DNA of 42,572 bases. Origin: a virus. Below the pieces are notes generated by a model. The model saw only the letters and a list, made by a program, of their open reading frames with translations. It had not been told where the DNA came from and did no database searches. Positions within the stretch are counted from its first letter, which is position 1. Each line of letters begins with the position of its first letter. The DNA lies in IMG/VR virus record IMGVR_UViG_3300032132_000001, positions 1 through 42,572 of that record; one strand, given 5' to 3'. The position numbers and the translations under genes are program-made. Positions 5,431 through 37,134 of the stretch are shown here, piece by piece.

Positions 5431-5448
5431 ACCCAACGTGCCACGGGT
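5431..5448 (-). repeat. 13-base intergenic element, copy 1
   Basis: Minus strand ACCCGTGGCACGTTGGGT, core CCGTGGCACGTTG at 5446-5434. It begins immediately after, and shares a base with, the TAA of the gene at 5448. ACCC and GGGT could form a 4-bp stem closing a 10-base loop. The next start codon is only about 18 bases downstream, which makes a promoter role unlikely. Confidence 0.8.
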
Positions 5449-5843
5449 TAGTAGGAATAGGTGAGAGTTTCTTTGATATTCTTCTCGCATTCCTCGATAT
5501 TGTTGATATCTCCGCAGTCATCGTCGTCTTCCATCAGGCGACCACCCTTGATGAAGAATTCGTATTCTTCGTGCATGCAACCCCCGCGATCATCTGGGTG
5601 CTCATAGACGATTTCTACACGTAGGACAGGGCCACGGGGGTCTTCACCTGCCGGATGCACTTCGTAATCGCAGCGCTCCGCATACCATCCGGAGTCACTT
5701 TTCCCAGTTTCGACCGCTAAATGTTGAAGCTGTTCCATCCTGGGATCGCCATCGTTAAGCAGCAGCTTCTTCTGGTATTCTAGGACGCCCAGCTTGCTAC
5801 GCGCTTCCTTGATCTGTTCCTCTAGTTCTTCCAGTTTGCTCAT
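5448..5843 (-). CDS. hypothetical protein with N-terminal coiled coil, 131 aa
   Basis: Residues 1-30 (MSKLEELEEQIKEARSKLG onwards) form a short coiled coil. The rest is acidic with a CDYEVHP stretch, EIVYEHPDD and a DDDDCGD run. The start ATG overlaps the end of the upstream gene by four bases. No known domain is seen. The stop codon abuts the 13-base element. Confidence 0.65.
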   Translation of the reverse strand: MSKLEELEEQIKEARSKLGVLEYQKKLLLNDGDPRMEQLQHLAVETGKSDSGWYAERCDYEVHPAGEDPRGPVLRVEIVYEHPDDRGGCMHEEYEFFIKGGRLMEDDDDCGDINNIEECEKNIKETLTYSY

Positions 5844-6616
5844 TTCGCCTCTTCTAGCACACTATCGGTTAGAACGATATCATCTTCCACCATATCGCCA
5901 TTGGGGAGAGTGATAGTAACCTTGAGGTTGATTTCTGCAGTCATCTCTAGGTTCACATCGCCGTAGATGGAGTCATACTTGCGGAATTGATGGCACATCG
6001 TCTGTTTGATGCGGTCCACGCCTTTGACGAACTGGTCGTGGTAGTGGGTCTGTGGAACCTCGTTGATCTGCCTTCGAAGCTCGGGTCCGAAGTCAATGTC
6101 TGGGTCACCCAGGTCAATGTCAAGTTCAAGGTGGGGCCTGTGTCTATACCCTCCCCTCGGCTTCTCCTTACTGACTCCCATATAGACTTTCAAAGTCTGG
6201 CCGATAATCCCAATATAGGTATGGTCTTCAATCATACCACCTTCATCAGGGACATGCTTCTTATCGTAAGGCTTTACACCAAAGACCGGCATTGCCCAGC
6301 CCATCGCCTCGGCAACCTTGAAGAGTAGGTTCTTATTCAGATCCTTCCTTGCAGCTTCCTGCGAGATCCTGATCTTGCAACTGCGCAAGTGAATTTTTAC
6401 GCTCTTGAATTCTCGCTTACAGTATTGGCAGGTGCGCTCGTCCTTGCTGCGACGGTGAGCGCGGACGACCTCTAACTCTTCAGAGGTAAGCTCGTATGGG
6501 TTCTTGTGTTTGTACTCAGGGATCTGGAGATGGCCCTTGATCTCTTTATGGAGATCAAAGACCACACTGCGCATCTTGTGGATAAAGTCGGTGTCTGGAG
6601 TGTTCCTTTCAGCCAT
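5840..6616 (-). CDS. hypothetical protein with a single C2HC zinc finger
   Basis: About 258 residues. Residues 62-80 hold CQYCKREFKSVKIHLRSCK, a C-x2-C-x9-H-x3-C finger resembling those of the SDPxFDP proteins at 4203 and 13506, although this protein lacks the FDP motif. The C-terminal half is beta-rich and acidic, with DIDLGDPDIDFGP and MTAEINLKVTITLPNGD. ATG 6616 is preferred because it leaves two bases after the ligA stop; an ATG at 6631 inside ligA is possible. Nucleic-acid binding is plausible but unproven. Confidence 0.65.
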   Translation of the reverse strand: MAERNTPDTDFIHKMRSVVFDLHKEIKGHLQIPEYKHKNPYELTSEELEVVRAHRRSKDERTCQYCKREFKSVKIHLRSCKIRISQEAARKDLNKNLLFKVAEAMGWAMPVFGVKPYDKKHVPDEGGMIEDHTYIGIIGQTLKVYMGVSKEKPRGGYRHRPHLELDIDLGDPDIDFGPELRRQINEVPQTHYHDQFVKGVDRIKQTMCHQFRKYDSIYGDVNLEMTAEINLKVTITLPNGDMVEDDIVLTDSVLEEAK

Positions 6617-6618
6617 TT

Positions 6619-7749
6619 TTATTTCTTGCATTTGAGGCAGAGGTATTCTCTACCAGAGCGATCGACCACTGCTGTAATCTTGGGAATGACGTCGTTAGAG
6701 CGGATAACCATCACCCGATCTCCGATAGCGACGTCTAGCTGCTTAATATAGTCGAGGTTGTTGAGGGTGACTCGGGCGATTGTCGCGCCAGCGAGATTGA
6801 TAGGCTCGACTTCAGCTACCGGGCACATACGACCAGTAAGACCGGCCTGCCAGGTGATATCGTTGATCGTGGTGATCCCGCCCTCAGATTCGAACTTAAT
6901 AGCGAGCGCAGCCTTAGGCCGACCACCCACCATGCCAAGCTTCTTGTGAAGGGAGAGATCGTTACAGTCCACGACCAGACCGTCGATGAGATAGTCCAGC
7001 TTGTCACGCCGGTATTCCTCAAATCGATCCCACAGATCATCGGGTGTCCGCTTGTCGAAGAACCGTGCATAGGTCACGTGCTGGAGGCCGAGCTGTTGGA
7101 TCAGCTTGAACTCGTCCAGCTTCGTCTTCAGCCCAGGAACTACAGCCTGGAACCAGACGACCTTGAGATGTACGACGAGATCGTTGTCGCCCCTCTTGCC
7201 CTTCTTGTCCCTCGCCTTACCTGCTGCTGCGTTCCGGCAGTTCCGGTAGCCGAGAGGTACGAAGTGCTTGTTGAAGAGCGACTTCTCTAGCAGAATCTCA
7301 CCACGCAGTTCACCAGTGAATCTTGCATCTAGATCCTCCTTGATGTTCTGCATCTTGATGAAGTTGGGTGTGATATTCTCACCCTCGGCGCCGTTCCCTC
7401 GGGTGACGGCGTGGATGAGCTTTCCCTTCTTGTACGTTGCCACGATGGTGATCCCATCGAGCTTCTCGCTGAGGATGAGGTCACCCTTACCCTTGGCCCA
7501 CTTCAAGAAGTCAGCCTTCTCGTCGTGCTTCACCTTGGCAAGGGAACCGATAGTGCGCGAGTGCTTCTGCACGGGCCACACGGTGACCTGCACCGGGGCA
7601 CCTACGACCTTGAGAAAAGCGTTGGTGGGATCTAGCTTCTCTAGCTCGTCACGGAGTGTGTCGAACTCCGCGTCGTCCATTACGGGGCTGCCAGCATAGT
7701 ACGCATTGCTGGCGTCAGTCAGGGTCTTGACTAACGTTTTAATGTCCAC
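6619..7749 (-). CDS. ligA: NAD+-dependent DNA ligase, short form
   Basis: This enzyme seals nicks in duplex DNA using NAD+. The 376 residues show domain Ia (NAYYAGSPVMDDAEFDTL, residues 15-32), the adenylation motif SEKLDG with nucleophile Lys96, TRGNGAEGENIT, and an OB fold (GLTGRMCPVAEVEP through NNLDYIKQLDVAIGDRVMVIRSNDVIPKI). It ends at YLCLKCKK, only the first cysteine pair of the usual zinc finger. Full bacterial LigA has about 670 residues, so the zinc finger, HhH and BRCT regions are absent. Truncated phage LigA forms are known. The GTG start follows an excellent AGGAG and overlaps the upstream stop. A second, ATP-type ligase core lies at 10732. Confidence 0.92.
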   Translation of the reverse strand: MDIKTLVKTLTDASNAYYAGSPVMDDAEFDTLRDELEKLDPTNAFLKVVGAPVQVTVWPVQKHSRTIGSLAKVKHDEKADFLKWAKGKGDLILSEKLDGITIVATYKKGKLIHAVTRGNGAEGENITPNFIKMQNIKEDLDARFTGELRGEILLEKSLFNKHFVPLGYRNCRNAAAGKARDKKGKRGDNDLVVHLKVVWFQAVVPGLKTKLDEFKLIQQLGLQHVTYARFFDKRTPDDLWDRFEEYRRDKLDYLIDGLVVDCNDLSLHKKLGMVGGRPKAALAIKFESEGGITTINDITWQAGLTGRMCPVAEVEPINLAGATIARVTLNNLDYIKQLDVAIGDRVMVIRSNDVIPKITAVVDRSGREYLCLKCKK

Positions 7750-8452
7750 GTAGTTTCTCCTTCATCTTCGCAGAGTGATCCACGATCAGTTGTACGATTT
7801 CACCAACCCGATCTTGAATTTTAGCCAGCGGCAAAAAGACGGGCTTCATCGATGGAGTGTGGTGATTGTAGTATTGGTTTACTGGCTCGGCAGATACCTC
7901 TACCTGCTTTGCGGGGCGAGTTGCTATCTTGATCTCTAATTCGCTATAATAATGGTTCCCGTCCCACTCTTTCCGATTCGGACGTGCGCGGAACGTGGAT
8001 TTGAACATATCGCCTCCTGCGCCCCAACCTTTTCCTTTCAAGGCTTCCATCACAGCTTGGCGAGCAAGGGGGAGAGGTTTATGACCTTCATCCCATTCTT
8101 TCAGCCCAGCGGGCCGCTTGTGTGAAACAAGCACCTCTCCGCCTTCGGCGTACATCACCCCGTAGATCTTTTTGCCATCTTCTTCTAGCACTAGGCATCT
8201 AGACCAGTTGGATCCTCGGTTTCGTAGGATCGTAAAACCTGACTCGCGCAGCGTGTCGAAGATTCCACGTTTTATGGTGATCCCAGTAACTTCAGTGCCG
8301 AGGAACGCACAATTAAAAGTGCGCACCATGTGTACAAACACTTCTGGAGAGTTGACGAATTTGTTTACAGCCCAGTGGTCCTTGAACGGAAAGTTGACCG
8401 CAGTTAGAAACTGATCTGGATCGAACTTCGGATCCGAGAAGTAATCATGCAT
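7739..8452 (-). CDS. SDPxFDP-family protein, 237 aa
   Basis: Starts MHDYFSDPKFDPDQFL, with the motif closer to the N-terminus than in its relatives. The rest is a mixed alpha/beta protein with VTGITIKRGIFDTL and GVMYAEGGEVLVSHK, a Gly-rich loop (GKGWGAGGDMF) and a helical end KIQDRVGEIVQLIVDH. There is no zinc finger, unlike the members at 4203 and 13506. It overlaps ligA by 11 bases and the upstream zinc protein by eight, so all three are probably co-translated. Function unknown. Confidence 0.7.
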   Translation of the reverse strand: MHDYFSDPKFDPDQFLTAVNFPFKDHWAVNKFVNSPEVFVHMVRTFNCAFLGTEVTGITIKRGIFDTLRESGFTILRNRGSNWSRCLVLEEDGKKIYGVMYAEGGEVLVSHKRPAGLKEWDEGHKPLPLARQAVMEALKGKGWGAGGDMFKSTFRARPNRKEWDGNHYYSELEIKIATRPAKQVEVSAEPVNQYYNHHTPSMKPVFLPLAKIQDRVGEIVQLIVDHSAKMKEKLRGH

Positions 8453-8705
8453 CAGGTTTGCTTGCTATATGAAACTTCATTACAGGGACGATACCAGTCT
8501 CGTCACAAGCTGGACACCCTGTAGACACCACTCCATCGCAGTATTGGACGAGAAGCGCTGTATTCCCGCACTTCTCACAACCAAGCAGTACTGGATGCCA
8601 TTGATCGTGCTCACCTTGGGAGTGAGCACATTCGGGATCCTCACACGAGTTTACCCCTTTCTCCCTAATGTCCTCGTCAACGTCTTCTCTGTACCGTGGT
8701 TCCAT
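8445..8705 (-). CDS. small zinc-ribbon protein, 86 aa
   Basis: Three cysteine groups are visible: CEDPEC with a following H, CEKCG, and CPAC near the C-terminus. Two CxxC knuckles 20-30 residues apart form a zinc-ribbon pattern. The N-terminus is acidic (MEPRYREDVDEDIREKG). The start overlaps the upstream stop as TAATG. It may be an adaptor or nucleic-acid-binding protein; no specific family was recognised. Confidence 0.65.
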   Translation of the reverse strand: MEPRYREDVDEDIREKGVNSCEDPECAHSQGEHDQWHPVLLGCEKCGNTALLVQYCDGVVSTGCPACDETGIVPVMKFHIASKPDA

Positions 8706-9106
8706 TAGTCTCTCACGTTGATCCCGCTGCGTCGCAGGGCGTTTACCAACTCGCCTACGATTCGTTTGGTTATGCTGTTGTGCCTGTTGGGATCTGTGGA
8801 TCCCTTATGGCATTTATTGCACTCTCGTAGTCCTGACAACACCGAAGATCGCAACCGCTGTCGAGACAGCTGTTTGGCTGTCGCTTTCCATTCTTGATAC
8901 AAGCGGTTGATCGCCCAAGGGAGCGCGTAATTGCTCCCTTTGGCGTCATCCGGGAATGTAGCCATGATCTCTTCGAGTTTGTGCAGAGTCTCTTCATTAA
9001 AGGTACTCCACTCAAACTCGTCGTGATCTAGATATGGCCTAAGTTCCGAATCCGAGCCTGGGGTTGGGAGAGGACTCGGAGTTGGCTTGCCATCCGAGTG
9101 ATTCAT
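8705..9106 (-). CDS. hypothetical protein with partial zinc-finger motif
   Basis: About 133 residues from ATG 9106, which lies inside the end of the AAA+ gene (68-base overlap). No start codon exists after that gene's stop, so the overlap seems real. The N-terminus is Pro/Ser-rich, the middle is helical, and CNKCHKGSTDPNRH near the C-terminus resembles a C-x2-C-x9-H knuckle. It is the immediate downstream partner of the AAA+ ATPase and may be its adaptor, which is inference. Confidence 0.55.
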   Translation of the reverse strand: MNHSDGKPTPSPLPTPGSDSELRPYLDHDEFEWSTFNEETLHKLEEIMATFPDDAKGSNYALPWAINRLYQEWKATAKQLSRQRLRSSVLSGLRECNKCHKGSTDPNRHNSITKRIVGELVNALRRSGINVRD

Positions 9107-10649: not shown

Positions 10650-10662
10650 CTCGTCTCCTCGA

Positions 10663-10677
10663 CGGCTTCTGAAGCCG
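10663..10677 (-). other. leader hairpin upstream of the AAA+ gene
   Basis: CGGCTTC and GAAGCCG form an inverted repeat with one central base, so realistically a 5-bp stem with a 5-base loop. It lies directly upstream of the GAGGAG ribosome-binding site and directly downstream of the GTATCTGA motif at 10679-10686. Confidence 0.45.
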
Positions 10678-10678
10678 G

Positions 10679-10686
10679 TCAGATAC
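10679..10686 (-). promoter_or_regulatory. GTATCTGA leader motif, copy 2
   Basis: Minus strand GCCTGTATCTGA, 30 bases upstream of the AAA+ start and inside the 82-base gap after the ATP-ligase gene. Candidate promoter element by recurrence only. Confidence 0.3.
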
Positions 10687-11314: not shown

Positions 11315-11983
11315 TTACACCACCAATCCGATATTGGCTAGCACCTCGTCTAGGTTGTTGATTCTAAACGGGTCTAGTTGATATTGCTTGTCCAGGGACA
11401 GGTTGCCATTGCTGTCCATCTTCCAGTCACCCTTGATCGGCTTGAGAGTCTTGAGATCGAGCATGAACCTGATCTCACCATAGCAGTACTCCCACTGCAC
11501 CCCGTTATCTGCGCAAGCGAACTTCCCTTCAATGACCCCATAGGGTGCATCGTATTCGGGGTCGCTCAAGATCTCGTGGTCACCTAGTTTGGTCAGCTTG
11601 TACGAGATGCGCTTACACTTGGGCTTCTCAACCTTCTTGCACTTGCGATGTTCTTTACATTCCTTGCGGATGCTGTCAACATAGTCTTGGATCTGCTTTT
11701 TACTCCAGTTGTATTTGCTGACCTCCTTCTCTTTCCGCACAGCATAGTCGCAGTGCTTAGGTGTGCAACCTTTATGGTTACACTTAGTTTCTCTAGTGCG
11801 CACCAGACACGGCCTATATCCACAAGTCCTGTGCCTGCAGAATTCTGACTTCCCCTTGAGCACTGCAAACCCCAAGAACTTGGCGGTAAACAACATGCCA
11901 CTGGAGTGTTCGTGTTGGAAGAACTCCCCGTTCCCAGCTTGGAGACGGGGATGGTTCCTCACTTTAGTCCGACCTTTGGCCAT
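11315..11983 (-). CDS. Cys/His-rich zinc-binding protein, 222 aa
   Basis: The N-terminal half has many Cys and His residues: FCRHRTCGYRPC, CNHKGCTPKHC, and CKEHRKCKKVEKPKC. This suggests at least two zinc sites. The C-terminal half has YGVIEGKFAC, a YGEIRFML strand and a Lys/Asp-rich end. A short DPEYDA stretch resembles the SDPxFDP motif but is internal and incomplete. The start overlaps the upstream stop (TAATG). Probably nucleic-acid binding; family not recognised. Confidence 0.7.
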   Translation of the reverse strand: MAKGRTKVRNHPRLQAGNGEFFQHEHSSGMLFTAKFLGFAVLKGKSEFCRHRTCGYRPCLVRTRETKCNHKGCTPKHCDYAVRKEKEVSKYNWSKKQIQDYVDSIRKECKEHRKCKKVEKPKCKRISYKLTKLGDHEILSDPEYDAPYGVIEGKFACADNGVQWEYCYGEIRFMLDLKTLKPIKGDWKMDSNGNLSLDKQYQLDPFRINNLDEVLANIGLVV

Positions 11984-14295: not shown

Positions 14296-14327
14296 GGTGG
14301 GGACCCAACGTGCCACGGGTCCCCACC
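14296..14327 (-). repeat. 13-base element copy 2, within an 11-bp hairpin
   Basis: GGTGGGGACCC and GGGTCCCCACC form a perfect 11-bp stem around the loop GTGGCACGTT (minus strand). The core CCGTGGCACGTTG is at 14318-14306. It lies 8 bases after the stop of the 14336 gene and 14 bases before the start at 14282. On the plus strand the hairpin is followed by CTTTTTAT, so it could terminate antisense transcription; no T-run follows on the minus strand. Confidence 0.85.
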
Positions 14328-17585: not shown

Positions 17586-17594
17586 TCAGATACC
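17586..17594 (-). promoter_or_regulatory. GGTATCTGA leader motif, copy 3
   Basis: Minus strand GCAGGTATCTGA, identical over 12 bases to the copy upstream of the VWA gene at 18999. It lies 11 bases after the VWA stop codon. Confidence 0.3.
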
Positions 17595-17616
17595 TGCAGG
17601 GGGCTTAATCCCTGCA
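17595..17616 (-). other. hairpin overlapping the VWA stop codon
   Basis: TGCAGGG and CCCTGCA flank an 8-base loop that contains the TAA of the VWA gene. It ends exactly where the GGTATCTGA motif begins. Confidence 0.45.
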
Positions 17617-18984
17617 ACTTAGCTGGATCTTTCGGCCCCACGGGGGCTCAACATCGGTGTTGATGCACCATAGGACAGGGAACGGGGGAGGTTCGGGGAA
17701 TCCTGCGTATCCATCAGTCAGGATGATGTTCACCCGGCCAACCACGCTGTGTTCGATGATACCATTGATGGCGATGTCGAAGCTCGTTCCTCCTCGTCCG
17801 TGGATCTTGATTTTCCTCCAGTCGCCACGGTGGTAGATATCGATCGCCTGGATCGCGTGGTCGAACTGTACCACGGTGATCTTGAACTTAGCGCTCATCG
17901 ATTCGATTTCTGCGAAGAACTGTTTGATCAGTTCATCTGAGACTGACCCTGAAGTGTCCACCAGCAGGGTGAGCGGTACACTTGCGTGATTGCTCTTGCC
18001 AGGGACCCCGAAGGTGTCGTGGCGTCGGCTTCGGCGGGCGTACGTCTTGCGCTTGCCTCCCAGCTTGCGCCCCACGTACTGCTTCAGTTCCGACTTCCAG
18101 TTGACCTGTGGGTCCTTGAGGGCTTCGATTGCTCCCACCAAGTGCCCTGGGATGTCACCAGCAGAGGTGGACTGCTGCACCATATCCCTGACGACTTGTC
18201 GTGCTTCGTCAGAGTCCGCAGTGGAGGTGTCCCAGATCGAGTGGTCGTCAATCAGCACGCCGTCGAGGAAGTCACCCATACCACCAGCACAGGCGTCACA
18301 TCCACCGCCCTTCTGCTTGTCTTGGTCTCCTTGGCCTCCACCCTTCTGGCCCTTGCCCTTCTTCTGGCCTCCGCCTCCACCCTTGCCATCTACACCTCGT
18401 CCACACTTGGGGCACTTGATGTTCTCTCGTGCCCATTTGTAGACCTCTTCAGAACTAGACTCTTGCGGCGGTCCGTTCTTGGTGGGGAAGTAAACCGCCT
18501 CACCATACTTCGGCTTGCCCTTCGCGTCTAGCTCGTGTTCCCCATCCTTGTTGAAGATCGGAATAGGTGGGAGCTTCTTGATGCGCGGCCTCTCCTTGGG
18601 GCCGTTGAGTACGGCATCGCATGACCAGTTGAACAGTTCTGGGTGCTTGGTGCCACCACGTACGATGTGCATACGTACCACATGCTCCACCTCGTGGATC
18701 AGCACGGCGATCAGCGCGTTATTCTGGGCATCCGTTCGGTTAGCAGCGATAGCTGCCACGAACAACGGGCTCCACAGGCACTCCACACGGCCACCAGCCA
18801 TCATCCGGACGCCCATCGTGGGCACTTGGCGCGATTCTTTCCAGTCGATGAGTGAACACATGGTGCCGTACCACGGCTTTGTGGTGAGCAACTTACACCT
18901 TGCGTTCATTAGGATCTCGCCAGCCTCATCTACTGCCGCTTTCGCGTCTTCGATTGAGGGCGGCGTGTATTTCTTGTCAGCCAT
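17605..18984 (-). CDS. VWA-domain protein with DUF2201-type metallopeptidase-like N-terminus
   Basis: 459 residues. The N-terminal domain has HEVEH (97-101) followed by VVRMH, the zinc-metallopeptidase-like helix of DUF2201 (COG3864) proteins. A Gly/Lys/Gln-rich hinge with CPKCGRG and a CDAC pair follows. The C-terminal VWA domain has the MIDAS start LLVDTSGSVSDE, a GRGGTSFD stretch (MIDAS threonine) and ILTDGYAGF. In bacteria such proteins pair with a MoxR-type AAA+ ATPase to remodel or activate targets; a MoxR-like gene lies upstream at 21111. The SD GGAGG precedes ATG 18984. Confidence 0.85.
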   Translation of the reverse strand: MADKKYTPPSIEDAKAAVDEAGEILMNARCKLLTTKPWYGTMCSLIDWKESRQVPTMGVRMMAGGRVECLWSPLFVAAIAANRTDAQNNALIAVLIHEVEHVVRMHIVRGGTKHPELFNWSCDAVLNGPKERPRIKKLPPIPIFNKDGEHELDAKGKPKYGEAVYFPTKNGPPQESSSEEVYKWARENIKCPKCGRGVDGKGGGGGQKKGKGQKGGGQGDQDKQKGGGCDACAGGMGDFLDGVLIDDHSIWDTSTADSDEARQVVRDMVQQSTSAGDIPGHLVGAIEALKDPQVNWKSELKQYVGRKLGGKRKTYARRSRRHDTFGVPGKSNHASVPLTLLVDTSGSVSDELIKQFFAEIESMSAKFKITVVQFDHAIQAIDIYHRGDWRKIKIHGRGGTSFDIAINGIIEHSVVGRVNIILTDGYAGFPEPPPFPVLWCINTDVEPPWGRKIQLSCRD

Positions 18985-18998: not shown

Positions 18999-19007
18999 TC
19001 AGATACC
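18999..19007 (-). promoter_or_regulatory. GGTATCTGA leader motif, copy 4
   Basis: Minus strand GCAGGTATCTGA, 15 bases upstream of the VWA start codon. If it is a -10 element, transcription would begin just before the ribosome-binding site. Confidence 0.3.
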
Positions 19008-21068: not shown

Positions 21069-21104
21069 TGGGAGCCGTGGCGACTCAACGTGCCACGGCT
21101 CCCA
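21069..21104 (-). repeat. 13-base element copy 3, inside a 13-bp hairpin
   Basis: Core CCGTGGCACGTTG at 21098-21086 on the minus strand. The flanks pair as TGGGAGCCGTGGC with GCCACGGCTCCCA, so here half of the element is in the stem, unlike copy 2 where it is the loop. Six bases separate it from the MoxR stop at 21111. Confidence 0.85.
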
Positions 21105-21110: not shown

Positions 21111-22439
21111 CTACTTCTTGCCCCAGGCCACGTCCTGCATGAGGTCGGCCAGGTCCTTACGCTTGTTCAGCGCACCCATCCAGCCGAGACCGCCACCCAA
21201 GTCGCCGGTCTGCTTGAACCGCAAGGCGATCCGTCGCAGGTTCTCGTTAGAGATAACCGACGCACCCAAGCTCTGAGTCTCCTCACCCACCAGCTGACGA
21301 CCGAGCATCACCGCCAGGTCTCGGTCACGCTGTGCGCACAGCCACTGCATGAAGTCCAAGACGTTCTTGACGATCTTCTTGTCGCTGCTGTGCTCCCGCG
21401 CGTTGCTCACGATACCCCACGTGAGACCGGCGAGCTGCGGGCGCTTCCACTTGCTGAGCTTGCTGGAGAACGGGGTCACACCCCGATCCAGGATATCCTT
21501 CGGCACCACTTCCGCCGAGAAGCTGAGGTAACCACGCGCCAGGCCCTGACCAACCAGGCCGGCAATGACTTCCTCGTACACATCCCGTACATCCTGCGGG
21601 AGGTCGTCCGAGTCGGAGATCACGGCCTCGACACGGGCCACCATATCCCACGCACGGGGCGAAGGCTTGATGGTGAATCCGTAGTCACCCTTGATCTCGC
21701 CCATCAGGTTCTTCTTGTCGAACCCGACGAACTGCAAGATACGGTCAGCCTGCTCACCGTACTTGCCGACCATGTACTCCGTCCAGTCCTGCGCCGCAGC
21801 ATCACCACCAACGGTGACGTTCAGGTGGCAGAACCGGTCGAGGAATGCCTCATCGGTGAAGTTGTTGACGACGTAGTTGCCGCCTTCCGCGTTCATGTAG
21901 TTACCAGCACAGGCGATCATCCAGCCTGACGGTACGGTGTACATGCCCACAGCGCGGTCCAGCACGAGCTGGAAGCTAGCCTGCAGCACGTCATCTTCCG
22001 AGCGGTTGATCTCGTCCAGGAACGCGATCCCCCGGTGCAGGTCGATGTCCACGCTCTTGCACTTGGGGCATTCTTCCGGCAGCTCACCAGTCAGCTGGTA
22101 GTCGCCATTCTTGCCGAACTTCTCACCGCATTCGCAGCAAGCATATTCACCATGCGGCAGCTCTGCCGGGGGCAGGTACCGGGTGACATGGTTGCCGTAG
22201 TCATCTTCGTGCTTCTCGGGCAAGCCACGGATGTCGGGCGCTTCACACTGGCTCAGGCGCAGGTCAATGAACCCCCACTTGAGCTTGGAGGGATTACCAT
22301 CGCGGAGGCGGTGGAAGTTCTCCGTCGTGATCTGCTTGACGCCCTGTGACTTGCCGATGCCACGGTGACCCCAGAGCATAGGGGTGACACCGGCTGCACC
22401 GCACAATTGGACGGCGAGCTTCGCTTTCGAGATATTCAT
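21111..22439 (-). CDS. MoxR-like AAA+ ATPase with zinc-ribbon insertion
   Basis: 442 residues. Walker A is GHRGIGKS (24-31), Walker B GIAFLDEIN (137-145), sensor-1 region ACAGNYMNAEGG. Between Walker A and B an insert carries C-x2-C at residues 101/104 and 124/127, a zinc ribbon not usual for this family. MoxR ATPases act as chaperone-like partners of VWA proteins; the VWA/metallopeptidase gene downstream (17605) fits that pairing. Two genes, an unknown and a radical SAM enzyme, separate them. It follows a terminator and has its own 65-base leader. Substrate unknown. Confidence 0.87.
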   Translation of the reverse strand: MNISKAKLAVQLCGAAGVTPMLWGHRGIGKSQGVKQITTENFHRLRDGNPSKLKWGFIDLRLSQCEAPDIRGLPEKHEDDYGNHVTRYLPPAELPHGEYACCECGEKFGKNGDYQLTGELPEECPKCKSVDIDLHRGIAFLDEINRSEDDVLQASFQLVLDRAVGMYTVPSGWMIACAGNYMNAEGGNYVVNNFTDEAFLDRFCHLNVTVGGDAAAQDWTEYMVGKYGEQADRILQFVGFDKKNLMGEIKGDYGFTIKPSPRAWDMVARVEAVISDSDDLPQDVRDVYEEVIAGLVGQGLARGYLSFSAEVVPKDILDRGVTPFSSKLSKWKRPQLAGLTWGIVSNAREHSSDKKIVKNVLDFMQWLCAQRDRDLAVMLGRQLVGEETQSLGASVISNENLRRIALRFKQTGDLGGGLGWMGALNKRKDLADLMQDVAWGKK

Positions 22440-25370: not shown

Positions 25371-26303
25371 TTACCCCTTGAAGAATTCCTCGGCGTCGAT
25401 GTACTGGAATCCGAGGCGCTTGGCGAAGGTCTTGTCTGTGGTCTGGTCACCTACGTAGATGCACTTACCTGGATTGAGCTTGTGCTTCTCGATCAGGAGT
25501 ACACCGAGACCAGATTGAGGCTTGCGACAGTAGCAGCGAGGCGGGACGTTGTGATCACAGAAGTGGTACTCGATCTGCACCCCAAGCTGGCGGTTGGTCT
25601 CCTCAAAACATGCCACGGCATCCTCACGAGTCAACTGACCCCGTGCCACACCGGACTGATTTGAAACACCAAGCATCAGCCGATCACCGACGAGCTTCTC
25701 GATCACCTTACGACCAGGCAGGAGCTTCACCTCGCTCGGCTTGGTGGGGAACTTGAGCTTCTCGTGGAGCGAGGTGCGAAGCGTCTCATCATAGTCAAAG
25801 ATGACAGCTTCAGTCTTGTACCCTAGGGAGCGACGGACGAACTTGACCTTCTCGATCTTGTCGAACCCCTCACTCTTATCGGGCTTCTCGAATTCCTTCT
25901 TGTACTTGAAGATCACGGCGATGGGGAAGGTGTTAGGACACTTGATTCCCTTCAGATCTTCTGGTGCACAGAAGATGCGCCCGTGCTTCTTGTACATGCG
26001 GTGCAGCGCGTTAATCTGCGCGTCTTCCGCTGAGGTCGCGACCCAGATGCAGCGGATCGGGATGCCCGCTTTCCGGCAGGCGTCGATGAACGGCTTCCGC
26101 ACCTCTGCCGTGGGGAAGAGGTTGTCGAGTACGACGGATTCGCCAGCTTTCAGCGCCCCGTCGAGGTGAGGGAGGAGTCCGACGATCTTGCCGCCGATCT
26201 TATCCCGGTTGAGGTGGACATACCCCTTGTCGATGAGTTCTTGGGAGTGGGAGGTCTTGCCGCTGGCGGGAAGACCGATCACCATCACTGCCTCTTGGGT
26301 CAT
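25371..26303 (-). CDS. polynucleotide kinase/phosphatase-like fusion (P-loop kinase + HAD with Zn loop)
   Basis: 310 residues. The N-terminal kinase has Walker A GLPASGKTS (10-18), then HLNRDK and DNLFPTAEVR, as in T4 Pnk-type and related nucleic-acid 5'-kinases. The C-terminal HAD phosphatase starts FDYDETLRTS, has GVSNQSGVARG and VGDQTTDKTFAKRLG. It also has CDHNVPPRCYCRKP, a C-x-H...C-x-C zinc loop typical of GmhB/HisB phosphatases. The domain order (kinase first) is that of T4 Pnk (301 residues), which heals RNA and DNA ends. The GmhB-type loop is an oddity and could mean another substrate. Start ATG overlaps the upstream TGA. Confidence 0.82.
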   Translation of the reverse strand: MTQEAVMVIGLPASGKTSHSQELIDKGYVHLNRDKIGGKIVGLLPHLDGALKAGESVVLDNLFPTAEVRKPFIDACRKAGIPIRCIWVATSAEDAQINALHRMYKKHGRIFCAPEDLKGIKCPNTFPIAVIFKYKKEFEKPDKSEGFDKIEKVKFVRRSLGYKTEAVIFDYDETLRTSLHEKLKFPTKPSEVKLLPGRKVIEKLVGDRLMLGVSNQSGVARGQLTREDAVACFEETNRQLGVQIEYHFCDHNVPPRCYCRKPQSGLGVLLIEKHKLNPGKCIYVGDQTTDKTFAKRLGFQYIDAEEFFKG

Positions 26304-26665
26304 TCTGTTTCTCCACAGGCAAGGTGCCACACCTTGCCTTTGATGTCTACGGTATCAGATCCTGCTTTCACAGGCTCATCACATCCGGGGCAGTTACCCC
26401 AACAGTCGCAAACCGCTTCGCCCCCACCATATGCTGGAGGGATTTCCCTATGAGGCTTGTCGCAAGTGGTACACCACATGAACGGGCCGTTCCCACAGGA
26501 ACTACAACCTACGTGAGGGCACTTATTTTCTCGCATCTCAGCGAACCAGGATTGCGGCAGCTCACAGCTGGAACATTCCCTTTCTCGGTCGTTATCGTTG
26601 TTCCCACAGTTAGTGCTATCACATTCTGCAAACGATTGACCACAGCTCTGGCACCCTTTAGTCAT
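26300..26665 (-). CDS. multi-knuckle zinc-binding protein, 121 aa
   Basis: At least six cysteine pairs: CQSCG, CDSTNC, CSSCELP, CSSCG, CTTCDKPH and CPGC, plus CDCWGNC. They form several consecutive zinc knuckles, with a C-terminal LIM/treble-clef-like KVWHLACGE. Probably a protein- or nucleic-acid-binding scaffold. The start overlaps the upstream gene's stop (ATGA). No catalytic motif. Confidence 0.7.
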   Translation of the reverse strand: MTKGCQSCGQSFAECDSTNCGNNDNDRERECSSCELPQSWFAEMRENKCPHVGCSSCGNGPFMWCTTCDKPHREIPPAYGGGEAVCDCWGNCPGCDEPVKAGSDTVDIKGKVWHLACGETE

Positions 26666-29312: not shown

Positions 29313-30599
29313 TTAGTTCCCGAACTGGATCAGGTACATCGGGTTGATCTGCCCCGTCCTGTACACGATCATCTCATTGTTCATGACACCGCTCTTATTC
29401 GCCTTCGCGAACGTTGAGTCGTACCCCGCTTTGGGGAGGCGCTCGCTGTAGCTCTTCGGGACGTAGTGCTTGCCCATGGCGACCTCGTTGAGGAACATAA
29501 AGCAGCTGCTATCTTTTGCTCCACCCCAATAGCCGTAGGCATAGTTCAGCGACTTGGTGGACTGGTCGCTGAAGTAGACGCCGTTGCCAAACATCCGGCC
29601 CGTGCAGTGGGCAGCGTTGCTGGGTGGGATGTAGAACCCGCTCTTGAGGATGGAGAGGAGGTTGGCCGCTCGGGTTCCGTGCCAGAGCCGCATGATCTTG
29701 CCAACCTTACGACCGTCAGCCTCGAAAGCTTCAGCCATTGCAGTGATGCTCACCGCGTAGACCTTCTTGATCTTGAGGTGGGCGCAGGCATGGCGTCCTT
29801 GGAGCGTGGACTTGTACAGCTTCTCCAGTGGTCCAACCACCTTCTTGTCTGCGACGAGATGGAGCGAGACGTCGAACACCTTCGGAGCCGACCTCTTGGC
29901 CTTCTTGTCTTGCTTCTTACGCGCATCAGCTACCTGGTCCAGAGCCGTAGCAAGGGAGTCCAGGAGGTCGTTCTGCTGACGCATATGCTCCAGCGTGCCC
30001 ATGTCACGCCGTGGGCTGAACTTCTTCATCCCGATATCGGTTGGGATGATGCGCATGTAGTCGCCGCACAGGGTCAGGTACGGCTTACTGGTGATAGTAT
30101 CCTTGGCGACGTAGCCCGAAATCTTGCCAAGCAAAACTCGCGCCTCATCCAGCCCGTCTTGGGTGATGACACCCAGCGGGGTGGAGAACACACCAGTTAC
30201 CGCATCGTACGTGATGTTGGCGTTGCTGGTGATATTGTGGATGTTGACTTTGGACAGGTATCGGACCAGATCATTCGTCTCCTTGCAGGACGTATCGATC
30301 TGATCTACTGCCAGCTGGGTGAGATTACCGACTGGCTTCGCTCCCGCCTTGTCTCCACCCTTCGTACCCGACACCGTTCGTTGGTGAGTGTACCCTTTCT
30401 TCAGCTTGGACTTGAGGAGCTTGTCCAGCTTCCCCTCACCGGCACCAGAGTGAGTCTTGCTTTGGCCGTTGGCTCCAACACGACCCCACTCTACATAGAG
30501 ATCATCGTTCTCGTAGAGTGTTCCATGCCAGAATTTGTTGGAGTTCTTCTCGATGTTATCGACGTAGATTAGTCTCTCTTCACGCAGTACTTTGCTCAT
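29313..30599 (-). CDS. WGR-domain poly(ADP-ribose) polymerase, PARP1-like
   Basis: 428 residues. N-terminal WGR domain (FWHGTLYENDDLYVEWGRVG, about 18-37, then TGYTH-like end), a helical regulatory-type region (about 95-220), then the ART catalytic domain. The catalytic triad is H-Y-E as in PARP1: HGTR His307, FGNGVYFSD Tyr342, MNNEMIVY Glu409; SKSLNYA matches the conserved SKSANY segment. Such enzymes transfer ADP-ribose from NAD+ to proteins, and WGR domains bind DNA ends. The intact triad predicts chain-forming ability. A host-takeover or DNA-damage role is inference. The start is ATG 30599 after AAGGGA; an in-frame GTG is two codons earlier. Confidence 0.9.
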   Translation of the reverse strand: MSKVLREERLIYVDNIEKNSNKFWHGTLYENDDLYVEWGRVGANGQSKTHSGAGEGKLDKLLKSKLKKGYTHQRTVSGTKGGDKAGAKPVGNLTQLAVDQIDTSCKETNDLVRYLSKVNIHNITSNANITYDAVTGVFSTPLGVITQDGLDEARVLLGKISGYVAKDTITSKPYLTLCGDYMRIIPTDIGMKKFSPRRDMGTLEHMRQQNDLLDSLATALDQVADARKKQDKKAKRSAPKVFDVSLHLVADKKVVGPLEKLYKSTLQGRHACAHLKIKKVYAVSITAMAEAFEADGRKVGKIMRLWHGTRAANLLSILKSGFYIPPSNAAHCTGRMFGNGVYFSDQSTKSLNYAYGYWGGAKDSSCFMFLNEVAMGKHYVPKSYSERLPKAGYDSTFAKANKSGVMNNEMIVYRTGQINPMYLIQFGN

Positions 30600-30632
30600 T
30601 GTCACCAGTTCCCTTATGCGGTTATTTCGCGA

Positions 30633-32673: not shown

Positions 32674-32684
32674 TCTTACCCTCC

Positions 32685-32697
32685 CAACGTGCCACGG
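32685..32697 (-). repeat. 13-base intergenic element, copy 4
   Basis: Core CCGTGGCACGTTG (minus strand), 4 bases after the stop of the gene at 32702. Here CGTGCC and GGCACG flank GT, giving an alternative 6-bp inverted repeat. The GGGAGG ribosome-binding site of the next gene starts right at the end of the element. Confidence 0.8.
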
Positions 32698-32701
32698 CAC
32701 G

Positions 32702-33205: not shown

Positions 33206-33211
33206 AGGCTA

Positions 33212-34084
33212 TCACATCCAGTTGTGTTCAGGGGTCATCTCCGTCAGGTCAGCTTCGAAGAACTCTAGATCCTCGACGTTCCCGTCGATTGACTTGGGGT
33301 CAGACATCTCGATACCCCATAGGTCTAGAAAGTCCATCTTGTTGTACTTGACCAGGGTGGGTGCGTCGATGACCAGCTTGCCAGGGTATTTGTGATGGGT
33401 GTGGAACCAGGTCCTATTGATCGGTTCTCCCACTGGGCGTCCGTTCTGACCATAGTATACATCACCATAGGCGATAGCAACCACGGCTCCAGCATTATTG
33501 CCCAACTTGACCAAGTTGTCTCGCAGATACTGCATATAGTTGCCGTCTTCTGCGATCATGATGATCGAGTTTCCGACGATATCAACCACCTGGTATCCTT
33601 TCTGGTTCAGTTTGGGACCCTTAGCCAATTGGTGGAGATCTTCCAACCGTACCATGACAGTGTTGTCTACTTTCAGCTTGTTAGGGAACAAGCCAGGGAA
33701 GTTGATAGTCACCACATAGCATTGGATCGCAGGCTGAACGTTGGCCTCATCTGCCATCCTGTTCTTAGCCCGATCGATACCCTCTGCCACTTTGTCATAG
33801 CCGATTTCATGTAGGATATCCGCTGGCCCACCAGGCCAGACAAATCCACCCTTCCATGGGTAGGTGGGGAAACGTGTCAGCCCCCAACCCCAACTGGAAG
33901 AACAAGAAGCCGTGAAAGACCTCTCGAAGATGACGTACGGTTGGGACCAGTGTTCTCCATCGGGGATGAGAGCAATGATCTTACTCTCATCCCCGAAAAT
34001 CGACTTATTTTCGAAGTCAGAGTGCGGATGCCCCAGAGAACCTTCTAGAATCTCACCCGCAGTCTCGAAGTTGAATTCACCCAT
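33212..34084 (-). CDS. hypothetical protein, 290 aa
   Basis: ATG 34084 (MGEFNFETAGEILEGSLG) is chosen because its TAATG overlaps the radical SAM stop. The protein contains FVWPGGPADILHEIGYDKV, VVTINFPGLFPNK, VVDIVGNSIIMIAEDGNY and a WFHTHHKYPGKLVI stretch with several His residues. The C-terminus is acidic. It may be an enzyme, but no motif matches a family I recognise. Confidence 0.65.
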   Translation of the reverse strand: MGEFNFETAGEILEGSLGHPHSDFENKSIFGDESKIIALIPDGEHWSQPYVIFERSFTASCSSSWGWGLTRFPTYPWKGGFVWPGGPADILHEIGYDKVAEGIDRAKNRMADEANVQPAIQCYVVTINFPGLFPNKLKVDNTVMVRLEDLHQLAKGPKLNQKGYQVVDIVGNSIIMIAEDGNYMQYLRDNLVKLGNNAGAVVAIAYGDVYYGQNGRPVGEPINRTWFHTHHKYPGKLVIDAPTLVKYNKMDFLDLWGIEMSDPKSIDGNVEDLEFFEADLTEMTPEHNWM

Positions 34085-34938
34085 TACACGTAGTATTCCT
34101 CTGGTAGGGGATCGCCAGTCCTCAGTTCCTGCCACCCCTTGAAGTGAGTGTCACGCCAGATGATGAGCTTGTCGCTCTTCCACGCCTTCGCCCATTGAGC
34201 ACGGTACTTGCGCTTCCAAGCGCGGTAGAGAGGAACGTCCACATAGTGGTCTACGATCTTGTCCCCGAAAGCGTGGGTCTTCAGCGTGTTGATCACGTTC
34301 TGACGCACACCTTGATACAAGCAGGTCAGACCAACACATACCTCGTCCACGCCGACCGCAATTAGATCACGGGCTAGCGTTTCTACCGCCCGATCCGACA
34401 AGAGAGGGATGGAGGGGGAGACGTTGGCGACCACGAACACGCCCATCTCCTTGAGACGCCAGATAGCCTGGAGTCTCTCACCGTTCGTCACCTTCATCCG
34501 CTCGACGTGCTGACGGTCCTCTTCCAGGTACGGAGAGATCGTGAAGTGCACCCGACCACGAGGGAGGAGAGCAATGAGGTCCGTGTCTTCCACGACGCTC
34601 GGGGAGCGGGTGAAGATCCCGACCTTGGTGATCTCGTCCTTCTTGGCGAGAGATTGCAAGATCGTACGGGTGATGCGAGCCTTGCGCTCGACAGGCTGGT
34701 ATGGGTCACAGTCAGTGCCGATGGCAATCTTACCGGCAATGTCTGCGGAGAGGATTCGGTCAGCGACGTTTTCCCTCTCGTGGACGAACGTACCCCAATC
34801 CATTGGTGCGATGCTGCGCACGTAGCAGTACGAGCAGCCGTAGGTACAGCCGACGTACGGATTACAGCTGTGGTCGTATGCGGTGAATCCCGTCTCCCGG
34901 AAGAGAGCAGCGTGGTTTACAACCGATTTGATTTCCAT
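34084..34938 (-). CDS. radical SAM enzyme, SplB/COG1533-like (2 of 2)
   Basis: 284 residues. The cluster motif CNPYVGCTYGCSYCYVR has Cys31, Cys35 and Cys38 in C-x3-C-x2-C spacing and an upstream Cys25. Later segments are IAIGTDCDPYQPVERKARITR, VGIFTRSPSVVEDTDL, RVHFTISPYLEED and GVFVVANVSPSIPLLSD, similar in layout to the homologue at 19948. The CDPYQP stretch is typical of the Rv2578c-like group. Substrate unknown. It lies in a run of unknown genes, so the two copies are in different neighbourhoods. Confidence 0.82.
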   Translation of the reverse strand: MEIKSVVNHAALFRETGFTAYDHSCNPYVGCTYGCSYCYVRSIAPMDWGTFVHERENVADRILSADIAGKIAIGTDCDPYQPVERKARITRTILQSLAKKDEITKVGIFTRSPSVVEDTDLIALLPRGRVHFTISPYLEEDRQHVERMKVTNGERLQAIWRLKEMGVFVVANVSPSIPLLSDRAVETLARDLIAVGVDEVCVGLTCLYQGVRQNVINTLKTHAFGDKIVDHYVDVPLYRAWKRKYRAQWAKAWKSDKLIIWRDTHFKGWQELRTGDPLPEEYYV

Positions 34939-35717
34939 TATTCGCCTCCTGCGGCAGTCGTCTTCAGCGTCTTGGTCGTCTCACCATGGTAGAGCCCTTG
35001 CAGCTCCACTACACAGCACCCTTCAGGTTCTACTTCTTGATTGACCTCTTCCACCATGTCAGAGTAGATCGACTCTGCCGCCGCTAGAGTTGTAGCGATC
35101 TTGACCTTCTGATCGAACATCTCACCGTACTCTTCCCATTCGGTGCGGACGATGGCATACATGTCCGGGTGGACTGTCGCCGGATCGCGCCTCTCTGGGT
35201 GATCCGGGTTGAAATCTGCCTGGTCGTACTTCTTGTAGTAGCTGTGTTCCCAATCTGGCCTAGGAACAGGGAGGGACCCAGCACCTTGAGCTTCGATAAG
35301 AAGTTCTTCGAAATCGTTGAATTTCGAATGTTCAGGATCAGACCATTGCTCAGGCACCTTTCCTCCCATCACCCGCTCAATGAGATGCCTTGCATTTGGG
35401 ACGATGGGATAGTCGTGGTTGTTAGAGGCGTAGTTTGTCCTCTCAGTTCCGAGATGCTTGAACCCGTTGTAGTGACCAGACAACTTGACAGCTGTCTTGG
35501 TTTTCCCATCTACGATCTCATGGACCACGAAGTTGCTCATGAGATCGTTCGTCTCTGCGAGAGTCATCAACACTCGCATCATGGACAACTTGTTTTTGAA
35601 TGTCCACATTCGGCAGGGCTGAGCGCTGCCGCCTCTACTCTCTGATGGTTTCTTGATGAGTAGCACGACGCTACCATCGACCATCTCACCAGCAATATCA
35701 CGCCAAGGAGCGGGCAT
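34938..35717 (-). CDS. hypothetical protein, 259 aa
   Basis: Starts MPAPWRDIAGEMVDGSVVLLIKK. Contains RMWTFKNKLSMMRVLMTLAE, a DFNPDHPERRDPATVHPDMY stretch and a C-terminal CCVVELQGLYHG strand pair. The N-terminal VVLLIKKP suggests a beta-rich domain. No family recognised. Its stop overlaps the radical SAM start. Confidence 0.65.
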   Translation of the reverse strand: MPAPWRDIAGEMVDGSVVLLIKKPSESRGGSAQPCRMWTFKNKLSMMRVLMTLAETNDLMSNFVVHEIVDGKTKTAVKLSGHYNGFKHLGTERTNYASNNHDYPIVPNARHLIERVMGGKVPEQWSDPEHSKFNDFEELLIEAQGAGSLPVPRPDWEHSYYKKYDQADFNPDHPERRDPATVHPDMYAIVRTEWEEYGEMFDQKVKIATTLAAAESIYSDMVEEVNQEVEPEGCCVVELQGLYHGETTKTLKTTAAGGE

Positions 35718-35725
35718 TATGCCTC

Positions 35726-36127
35726 CTAGGTCCAGTGGAGGCTGTGGCCTCCAAGCTTTTCGATGCGATTGAAGATTGGATCAAGACGCAGAGCGTCCTT
35801 CTTGGTACCCTCATACATCGCCGTATCCCGACCGATGATGAGGTCTACCAGCTTCTGATCGAATTCAGGGATGACGAAAGAAGCGCCGAAATTGTAGACG
35901 ATCCCGCCGTCATACTTCCGCAGCACCTTCTCGGGCTTACCCCGGTCGTCCCCATAGAGGTTGATCTTACCAAGCCAACACTCACCATGGTCTTTGACCA
36001 TTGCCATGACGATCTGGCGGGACGCGTCATTGATGTCAGGGTCCGCTTCTGGCAGACAGCCGTTGAATCGAAGGTGGGGGAGCATGAGATTGGTCAACCT
36101 CCCCACCGCTTGGGATGTATAATTCAT
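35726..36127 (-). CDS. hypothetical protein, 133 aa
   Basis: Begins MNYTSQAVGRLTNLMLPHLR and has NGCLPEADPDINDASRQIV, WLGKINLYGDDRGKPEKV and an FVIPEFDQKLVDLII region. The ADPDI segment resembles the ADP segments of the two paralogues at 32702 and 36124. Unknown family. Confidence 0.65.
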   Translation of the reverse strand: MNYTSQAVGRLTNLMLPHLRFNGCLPEADPDINDASRQIVMAMVKDHGECWLGKINLYGDDRGKPEKVLRKYDGGIVYNFGASFVIPEFDQKLVDLIIGRDTAMYEGTKKDALRLDPIFNRIEKLGGHSLHWT

Positions 36128-36567
36128 AGAGCCCTCTTGAGTGCTTCCATCATGATGTCGTAGTTTGGATATTGCGACAGATCACGGGGAACCAAAATAC
36201 CGGTGTACCCTTCTTCCAAAAGCCGACTTTTAGCTAGGCCGTAGAATTTAGATTCTGCTAGGTCGAACATGTACGTGGTGCCAGTGAATTCGTCATCTTC
36301 ATCGTAATGTTCACCTCTTGCGATAAGCATTTCTAGGAAGATTCGTCCGACGTTTGGGTCTGCCAGCTCAGATTCTGTTAGGACTGGGAAGAATTGTAGA
36401 GTACAGTCTACTTTGGGATGCACTTTAGTCCACGGACCAGTCTGCTTTTCATAACCACAACAGTGGTGCATACACTTTCCGGTTGGTGAAACGAAACCGT
36501 AGAAAGATCCGGTTTCTGCTCTCTGGATAGCTTTCCTAAACGGAAGATCTAGGATTATTTGTTCCAT
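36124..36567 (-). CDS. hypothetical protein, paralogue of 32702-33205
   Basis: 147 residues: MEQIILDLPFRKAIQRAETG, CMHHCCGYEKQTGPW (possible metal site), DCTLQFFPVLTESELADP, RIFLEMLIARG, TYMFDLAESKFYG and a C-terminal NYDIMMEALKRAL. The spacing of these blocks matches the 32702 protein. It overlaps the 35726 gene by four bases. Confidence 0.65.
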   Translation of the reverse strand: MEQIILDLPFRKAIQRAETGSFYGFVSPTGKCMHHCCGYEKQTGPWTKVHPKVDCTLQFFPVLTESELADPNVGRIFLEMLIARGEHYDEDDEFTGTTYMFDLAESKFYGLAKSRLLEEGYTGILVPRDLSQYPNYDIMMEALKRAL

Positions 36568-36586
36568 CTGTCACTCCGGACATACA

Positions 36587-36614
36587 AATGGCCCGGCAGG
36601 GAAGCCGGGCCATT
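36587..36614 (-). terminator. intrinsic terminator after the tiny membrane genes
   Basis: AATGGCCCGGC and GCCGGGCCATT form a perfect 11-bp stem with a 6-base loop, followed by TGT-rich sequence on the minus strand. It separates the tRNA/small-gene block from the 36567 gene. The T-run is short, so efficiency is uncertain. Confidence 0.7.
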
Positions 36615-36617
36615 ATG

Positions 36618-36749
36618 TTAGCAGGATTGGACGAGGGTAATCGCCAACATCACCAAGAATCCAGCAGAGAGGCCGAGGAAGGCGCTCAAAGAGAAGTCTA
36701 GGATATGACGTTGGGGATCTTCATCTCGATGTTTCTTTCGGTGTCTCAT
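36618..36749 (-). CDS. tiny membrane protein, 43 aa
   Basis: Too short for default calling. Product: a basic N-terminus (MRHRKKHRDEDPQRH), then a hydrophobic helix LSAFLGLSAGFLVMLAITL and VQSC at the end. ATG 36749 overlaps the stop of the preceding tiny gene (TAATG). The arginine/histidine-rich start suggests N-in topology. Its reality is supported by the overlap, the upstream gene's good ribosome-binding site and the terminator right after its stop. Confidence 0.6.
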   Translation of the reverse strand: MRHRKKHRDEDPQRHILDFSLSAFLGLSAGFLVMLAITLVQSC

Positions 36750-36847
36750 TAGTCGTCAATTACTATATGGCACACCAGGCACGCTACCAGTCCTACCAAA
36801 ATGTCGTCGGTGATGAACCAAAACGCAATTCCGACTAGGATTGACAT
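36749..36847 (-). CDS. tiny membrane protein, 32 aa
   Basis: Product: MSILVGIAFWFITDDILVGL then VACLVCHIVIDD, almost entirely hydrophobic. An AGGAG ribosome-binding site lies six bases before ATG 36847. Its stop overlaps the start of the next tiny gene. Two consecutive single-span proteins may act together, for example as a membrane-active pair; this is inference. Confidence 0.55.
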   Translation of the reverse strand: MSILVGIAFWFITDDILVGLVACLVCHIVIDD

Positions 36848-36864
36848 TACTGCTCCTGGGTGGG

Positions 36865-36941
36865 TGGTAGACCGGGTGGGAATCGAACCCACGACCTCCA
36901 CTTTATAAGAATGGCGCTCTTACCGACTGAGCTACCGGTCC
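36865..36941 (-). tRNA. tRNA-Ile (anticodon UAU)
   Basis: A 77-base cloverleaf with encoded CCA. Acceptor stem GGACCGG/CCGGTCT (one G-U), D arm GCTC/GAGC, anticodon stem CCATT/AGTGG closing CTTATAA, T arm GTGGG-TTCGATT-CCCAC. The UAU anticodon reads the rare isoleucine codon AUA. Confidence 0.95.
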
Positions 36942-36944
36942 AAG

Positions 36945-36964
36945 TTGGGAGCGGTAGCTCCCAA
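36945..36964 (-). other. hairpin between the two tRNA genes
   Basis: TTGGGAGC and GCTCCCAA pair around a 4-base loop. It lies three bases upstream of the tRNA-Ile 5' end in transcription order and may serve tRNA processing. No T-run follows. Confidence 0.55.
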
Positions 36965-37014
36965 ATTAGCTCGGTATTCGTATTCGTGGATGTGGGTGGG
37001 TCATGGTTTATGTT

Positions 37015-37091
37015 TGGTGGGCCGTGCAGGACTCGAACCTGCGACCAACTGGTTATGAGCCAGCCGCTCTAACCAACTGAGCTAACGGCCC
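37015..37091 (-). tRNA. tRNA with CAU anticodon (Ile2 more likely than Met)
   Basis: A 77-base cloverleaf with encoded CCA. Acceptor GGGCCGT/ACGGCCC, D arm GCTC/GAGC, anticodon stem GCTGG/CCAGT closing CTCATAA, T arm GCAGG-TTCGAGT-CCTGC. CAU tRNAs are either Met or, after lysidine modification by TilS, Ile2 reading AUA. C4-G69 and C5-G68, as here, are TilS recognition features of E. coli Ile2, whereas elongator Met has U4-A69 and A5-U68. It follows the 13-base element and a GTATCTAA motif. Confidence 0.93.
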
Positions 37092-37098
37092 GCTCCCT

Positions 37099-37107
37099 TT
37101 AGATACG
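37099..37107 (-). promoter_or_regulatory. GTATCTAA leader motif, variant copy 5
   Basis: Minus strand CGCGTATCTAA, eight bases upstream of the CAU-tRNA 5' end. It differs from the other copies by one base (A for G). Confidence 0.25.
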
Positions 37108-37116
37108 CGGGGTCAC

Positions 37117-37134
37117 ACCCAACGTGCCACGGGT
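37117..37134 (-). repeat. 13-base intergenic element, copy 5
   Basis: Minus strand ACCCGTGGCACGTTGGGT, core CCGTGGCACGTTG at 37132-37120, identical to copies 1 and 2 over 18 bases. It overlaps the TAA of the 37134 gene and precedes the tRNA pair by 26 bases. Confidence 0.8.

Follow-up and report, generated by a model that had tools for sequence, protein, structure and literature searches.

The window analysed here, bases 1-42,572 of the 395,473-base IMG/VR record IMGVR_UViG_3300032132_000001, carries five exact copies of the asymmetric 13-base element CCGTGGCACGTTG, which is the far-end form of a larger, variable family that makes up an array of about 32 sites along a 110-kb block of leftward genes. 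The sites of the array point one way, crowd together at one end of the block and thin out towards the other at regular intervals, form a sequence cline along the block, are anchored behind stop codons and are associated with hairpins. As the predicted function, we tentatively favour one-way transcription control, in which the sites act on elongating RNA polymerase across the 110-kb block; two rivals come close, namely oriented brakes on transcription and promoters for a polymerase that escaped recognition. The sites of the family within the window are the following.

5434..5446, minus strand: exact CCGTGGCACGTTG, 1 nt past a stop codon.
11889..11901, minus strand: degenerate copy GTGGCATGTTGTT in a gene; array member.
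14306..14318, minus strand: exact CCGTGGCACGTTG, 17 nt past a stop codon; loop of an 11-12 bp hairpin, GGTGGGGACCCG(TGGCACGT)TGGGTCCCCACC.
21086..21098, minus strand: exact CCGTGGCACGTTG, 12 nt past a stop codon; part of a 13-bp stem, TGGGAGCCGTGGC(ACGTTGAGTC)GCCACGGCTCCCA.
25604..25616, minus strand: degenerate copy GTGGCATGTTTTG in a gene; array member.
26318..26330, minus strand: weak copy GTGGCACCTTGCC in a gene, 14.7 bits by position weight matrix; excluded from the spacing statistics.
32685..32697, minus strand: exact CCGTGGCACGTTG, 4 nt past a stop codon; its GGGAGGG tail resembles a ribosome-binding site of the following ATG.
37120..37132, minus strand: exact CCGTGGCACGTTG, 1 nt past a stop codon; a tRNA-Met lies about 28 nt downstream.
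41254..41266, minus strand: degenerate copy GTGGCATGTTGGA in a gene; array member.

The five exact copies had been described in an earlier note on this DNA, with correct positions; all are on the minus strand and none is on the plus strand. The distance of 0-12 bases past a stop codon that the note gave for every copy is borne out for four of them and exceeded by the copy at 14306-14318. GGGT follows three of the five, in keeping with the "usually" of the note, and GAGT and GGGA follow the other two. The two hairpins are also as described, with the element forming the loop in one and half of the stem in the other.

A sixth exact copy is located on the other side of the circular junction, at 390,484-390,496 (minus strand) and a distance of about 5 kb, and a mismatch-tolerant scan of the whole record yields many related sites, almost all on the minus strand and clustered in 0-90 kb. 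The weight matrix seeds are divided 40 to 1 between the minus strand and the opposite strand, and the iterated matrix collects 35 minus-strand sites, 33 of them inside the block and two elsewhere. The consensus of the family is CCGTG(G/C)CA(T/C)GTTGG(G/A), or GTGNCAYGTTGR as a degenerate pattern, with the invariant core GTGGCAYGTTGG and no run of A/T; in a broader form, the sixth position also admits T. Word statistics recovered the same family with no prior choice of motif: the octamer CATGTTGG is the most over-represented one in the leftward block (22 copies against 2.06 expected, with a single copy on the opposite strand), and for GTGGCATGTT the count is 13, the expectation 0.08. Chance or an assembly artefact, to which the lack of motif-bearing relatives might point, is refuted by this over-representation and by the strand bias, so that we give it hardly any credence.

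The search among relatives, from which near relatives of the source record may have been hidden, returned no second array of this sequence. Exact-pattern scans of IMG/VR with the C and T forms of the element gave single matches per contig only, as chance would, and the motif is missing from seven related records (G001-G007, most of them fragments, with a DnaE polymerase 40-48% identical) and from the 595-kb phage LR756511. Repeated k-mers in G003 and G004 resemble coding repeats of low complexity and did not enter the analysis. The scan of the whole genome and its relatives, which the earlier note had proposed, thus revealed the array on the source genome and no motif in the relatives that were reached.

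The first 127 bases of the record are repeated identically at its end, so the molecule is circular, of about 395,346 bp. About 600 genes were called with a gene finder of our own. The genome encodes a contractile-tail module, a DNA ligase and a DnaE-type polymerase, together with 41 tRNA genes and one tmRNA; the source of the window is a jumbo phage. The minus strand carries every gene in the stretch that starts at 90.1 kb, runs leftwards past 0 and ends at 374.8 kb; this is the 110-kb block, and the whole window falls within it. Only 10 candidates for strong intrinsic terminators are found in the block, which makes long transcripts plausible, and tRNAs are the only known RNA families detected there.

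The distinctive property of the array is the regularity of its spacing rather than its density gradient. Followed along transcription from 89.45 kb, the first 16 spacings are 1.9, 1.0, 1.0, 1.3, 1.0, 1.4, 1.8, 2.2, 1.9, 1.5, 1.2, 2.5, 4.4, 2.2, 2.5 and 2.6 kb, and the remaining 15 are 4.0, 3.0, 5.7, 5.1, 4.1, 4.4, 7.1, 4.5, 6.8, 2.4, 6.5, 5.6, 4.7, 9.3 and 3.7 kb (about 32 sites, the weak one at 26,330 omitted). Spacing widens with distance from the block start (Spearman 0.84, p 2.5e-9), and once this trend is removed, the standard deviation (sd) of log spacing is 0.41, compared to 1.26 under random placement, with none of 5000 trials as regular. When random sites were limited to gene gaps, the sd was 1.15; none of 4000 trials matched the observed regularity, nor did any keep the sites at least 958 bp apart throughout. 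Ten degenerate copies lie inside genes, which in part fulfils a refutation that the earlier note had set for its own reading, but all ten are in the same orientation as the rest and fit the spacing. Randomising these ten while the gap copies were held fixed raised the sd to 1.00, and the observed 0.41 was never reached in 4000 trials; since the regularity is thereby lost, the copies inside genes are to be counted as array members. An interval spans 1-5 genes where the sites are dense and 7-18 at the opposite end, so gene length is not the cause of the gradient. Spacing that is regular irrespective of gene boundaries suits something that travels along the block and counts distance.

The sequence of the element changes along the same axis. 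Below 38 kb, C occupies the variable Y position in 8 of 12 sites, whereas none of the 21 sites above has it there (p 4e-5), and positions 2-3 are GG in 16 of 17 sites below 60 kb as opposed to 5 of 16 above (p 2e-4).

Regular spacing and copies within genes would also be expected of polar DNA sites that serve replication, recombination or translocation, similar to Chi or KOPS and separate from transcription, and the orientation of the array indeed tracks one of the arms that start at the minimum of the cumulative GC skew, near 90 kb. However, the array occupies that one arm only, the copies point away from the dense end, the reverse of KOPS, and the preference for gaps behind stop codons is strong, all of which makes this explanation highly improbable.

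With respect to genes, 22 of the 32 copies lie in gaps, and 17 of these 22 are no more than 22 nt past the upstream stop codon, compared to 8 expected under uniform placement in the same gaps. The distance from the element to the next start ranges from about 4 to more than 500 nt, and some starts, for example, those at 5432 and 32683, are probably called too late, with a good ATG available within 8-15 nt. Several copies lead directly into a ribosome-binding site or a tRNA. Such passages are what one would expect if the sites were promoters of a phage-specific transcription system with a T7-like layout, starting at the GG after GTT, and some T7 promoters likewise have GGAGG starts 11-13 nt ahead of ATG. 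The wide range of distances to the next start weighs against promoters, as does the composition of the element, which is G+C-rich and lacks a melting or -10 region. Promoters appear rather unlikely; the polymerase searches and the T7 layout, both considered below, also bear on them.

Strong hairpins centred on the element occur at 8 of the 22 gap copies, compared to 0.1 with shuffled flanks (maximum 1). The same test gives 0 of 23 for the stoperators of mycobacteriophage D29 and 2 of 134 for a motif of phage LR756511 that is described below. Because the register of the hairpin varies and its centre shifts relative to the element, a fixed RNA fold is ruled out, and the view of the earlier note that the sequence and not one fold is conserved holds. 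No consistent association with intrinsic terminators was found. Location just past stop codons, hairpins that hold the motif in the loop or close to it, and adjacency to tRNAs are all compatible with RNA-processing or 3'-end sites, at which the element would be cut or bound and a long transcript trimmed to pieces of 1-6 kb. Yet the loop centres vary, 14 of the 22 gap copies lack a strong centred hairpin, and copies inside genes would entail cuts in coding RNA; we regard processing sites as improbable. The broader alternative of the earlier note, a site for antitermination or processing at the RNA level, is a possible one that suits the hairpins better than a stoperator does.

Near the start of the block, a composite arrangement recurs from 81,177 to 89,026 of the source record (locus L009, minus strand): a G+C hairpin ending in CGGG, exactly 9 nt, GTTG(ACA/GAA/TCC), a ribosome-binding site and a start codon. 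CGGG-N9-GTTG is found in 13 cases in 81-89 kb, compared to 0-1 for N7, N8, N10 and N11, and is nearly absent elsewhere. The GTTG core is common to the composite and the array, in which CCGTGGCAY, the first nine bases of the element, fills the place of N9; we infer that the composite is an element related to the array. The gap of 9 nt between hairpin and GTTG is close to the length of the RNA-DNA hybrid, and we count it in favour of elongation control. The GTTGACA sites at 86-89 kb are not sigma-70 promoters, having no -10 at 17 nt and start codons that are too near.

A second oriented intergenic element, GTATCTGA, accompanies genes of both directions (for example, at window positions 3598-3605, 10679-10686, 17586-17593 and 18999-19006). 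It has 18 of its 31 copies in gaps, frequently behind hairpins, and the related record G002 has GTATTTCA in equivalent places; GTATCTGA is possibly a promoter element.

Taken together, the sense-only orientation, independence of gene boundaries, regular spacing, ribosome-free location and hairpins that fit RNA better than a known DNA-bound repressor argue for control of elongating RNA polymerase. We infer that the polymerase reads the sites and that they act positively, not as brakes. On reaching a site, the polymerase would pause, or a phage-encoded or host-encoded factor would recognise the exposed strand or the nascent RNA, and recognition would renew a modified state of the polymerase (anti-Rho or antitermination) for the following stretch. 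Location behind stop codons would provide RNA unshielded by ribosomes, and the variable copies are crowded at the start of the block, with the near-identical ones farther apart downstream. The more specific proposition of a distance-measured relay, in which about 32 same-strand milestones, graded in spacing and sequence, repeatedly re-arm the elongating polymerase, is doubtful, more so than elongation control as such. We know of no phage in which sites for elongation control form an array that is spaced regularly and in a graded manner.

Several observations weigh against elongation control. The family NusG (PF02357), to which an RfaH-type protein would belong, has no match in the source genome (control positive in 10 genomes; a host factor is possible), and an antiterminator was not recognised. 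Copies within genes would be covered by translating ribosomes. There is no consistent link to terminators, as noted above, and the density gradient is equally compatible with stoperators and with T7-type promoters. The relatives reached, with 40-48% identical DnaE, are not close enough to show conservation of the motif. Finally, the likeness to a pause site is weak and post hoc. The ops element, 12 bases long, causes pausing and follows the G-10/Y-1/G+1 pattern, and ops, nut and put all act only in the sense orientation, on elongating polymerase. Matrix columns 0, 9 and 10 are G, T and G in 34-35 of 35 sites, that is, G-N8-T-G, which fits the pause consensus and the layout of ops in a register picked after seeing the data.

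The search for a phage protein that reads the sites, which the earlier note had suggested, produced no recognisable candidate. For single-subunit RNA polymerases, PF00940, phrog_414 and phrog_2206 are without a match in the source genome; the T7 and N4 controls were positive for the two PHROGs, and the control for PF00940 was not. Neither was a multisubunit polymerase (PF00623, control positive) found. The lack of N4-like, T7-like and multisubunit RNA polymerases among the matches tells against promoters. A PHROG match labelled merely "polymerase" at 29313-30605 of the window (minus strand) is not an RNA polymerase but a PARP, with WGR, PARP regulatory and PARP catalytic domains (catalytic domain, Pfam E 2.8e-28). 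A protein with sigma-70 region 2 is encoded at 304 kb of the source record; unlike a sigma-70 promoter, the array element is a single G+C-rich block with no -10. A sigma-54 promoter, which calls for GG at -24 and, 10 bp from it, GC at -12, was rejected as well: the element offers only a -24-like TGGCAY and no conserved GC at the required distance. Possible readers are a polymerase of an unfamiliar kind, a factor supplied by the host, or a protein that binds DNA or RNA and was not recognised as such.

Other genes of the phage deserve mention in their own right. The DnaE-type DNA polymerase extends across two adjacent reading frames (163792-166377 and 167238-168713 of the source record, minus strand, locus L013), with family-profile matches that overlap slightly. 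An 882-aa protein in which a vault repeat accompanies a Major Vault Protein shoulder domain (Pfam 8.1e-25) is encoded at 265517-268165 on the plus strand (L018:3517-6165), and a peptide deformylase (Pfam 2.6e-35) at 85066-85500 on the minus strand (L009:3066-3500). Two tRNA genes with CTA anticodons, designated tRNA-Pyl by ARAGORN, are located at 81839-81914 (minus) and 290758-290830 (plus); they are possible amber suppressors. In the window, 17605-18984 and 21111-22439 on the minus strand encode two proteins related to N4 gp25 and gp24, a VWA-like/metallopeptidase protein (DUF2201) and an ATPase; the relative G004 has this pair, too.

Among known systems, the stoperators of cluster A mycobacteriophages (L5, D29 and Bxb1) are short asymmetric sites in about 20-30 copies, oriented with transcription and mostly located in short gaps (PMC9283540, PMC6550527). 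In the corresponding reading of the array, a phage DNA-binding protein on asymmetric double-stranded sites would block the polymerase from one side and silence or time the block. The right-arm stoperators of D29 follow the same orientation rule and gap preference as the array, with a minority in genes, and their density falls off from the early promoter in the same way (Spearman 0.86 vs 0.84). The shared features accordingly comprise an asymmetric, oriented site of about 13 bases, found mainly in gaps behind stops, and a density falling from the start of early transcription; furthermore, stoperator sequences differ between phages (PMC6550527), and the relatives searched here lack the motif. 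The differences are in the sequence itself, the regularity (residual sd 0.83 in D29), the centred hairpins, which D29 sites lack, the cline, and the repressor and lysogeny genes, which were not recognised. The Bxb1 repressor gp69 has no phmmer match in the source genome, a weak test given its single-sequence query; tyrosine integrase (PF00589, D29 control positive) and ParA (PF13614) have no match, and serine integrases were not searched. The resemblance to stoperators drawn by the earlier note is thus upheld for architecture and not for membership, and brakes of this kind seem rather unlikely.

The class II/III promoters of T7 also resemble the array: they lie on one strand behind stops, with one in a gene, run from dense, variable copies to sparse, near-identical ones (Spearman 0.71), and some start with GGAGG. 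They differ from it in their A+T-rich melting region, in the phage RNA polymerase that was not found here, and in their irregular spacing (residual sd 1.04). A gradient common to D29 stoperators and T7 promoters cannot separate a brake from a promoter. The A+T boxes that form the intergenic motifs of PB1-like phages are dissimilar to the array element (PMC3008698).

Huge phages hold one-way gene blocks of more than 100 kb, and the array bears on how transcription of such a block is sustained or timed without a phage RNA polymerase; each site predicts the location of a pause, a start or a stop. The ops, nut and put sites, with which elongation control invites comparison, number one or two per transcription unit, as opposed to about 32 in the array, and the NusG paralogue is not found here.

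An analogous oriented array with another sequence is present in the uncultured phage LR756511.1 (loci L100-L129), where the intergenic element AGCTGTAC, with the consensus TAAAGCTGTACTAA, has 134 octamer copies over 0.7-300 kb, in 59 gaps in the sense orientation and none in the antisense orientation, and occurs about once per gene over 0.7-18.9 kb, where it is densest, directly after stop codons or terminators. Like the array described here, it consists of a short, oriented intergenic motif past stops, concentrated in one part of the genome; it differs in sequence, in the near absence of strong hairpins and in a density that rises downstream on its minus strand, and the functions of the two may differ. 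Oriented arrays with phage-specific sequences, of a kind that small-genome motif searches miss, may, as LR756511 suggests, be general in huge phages.

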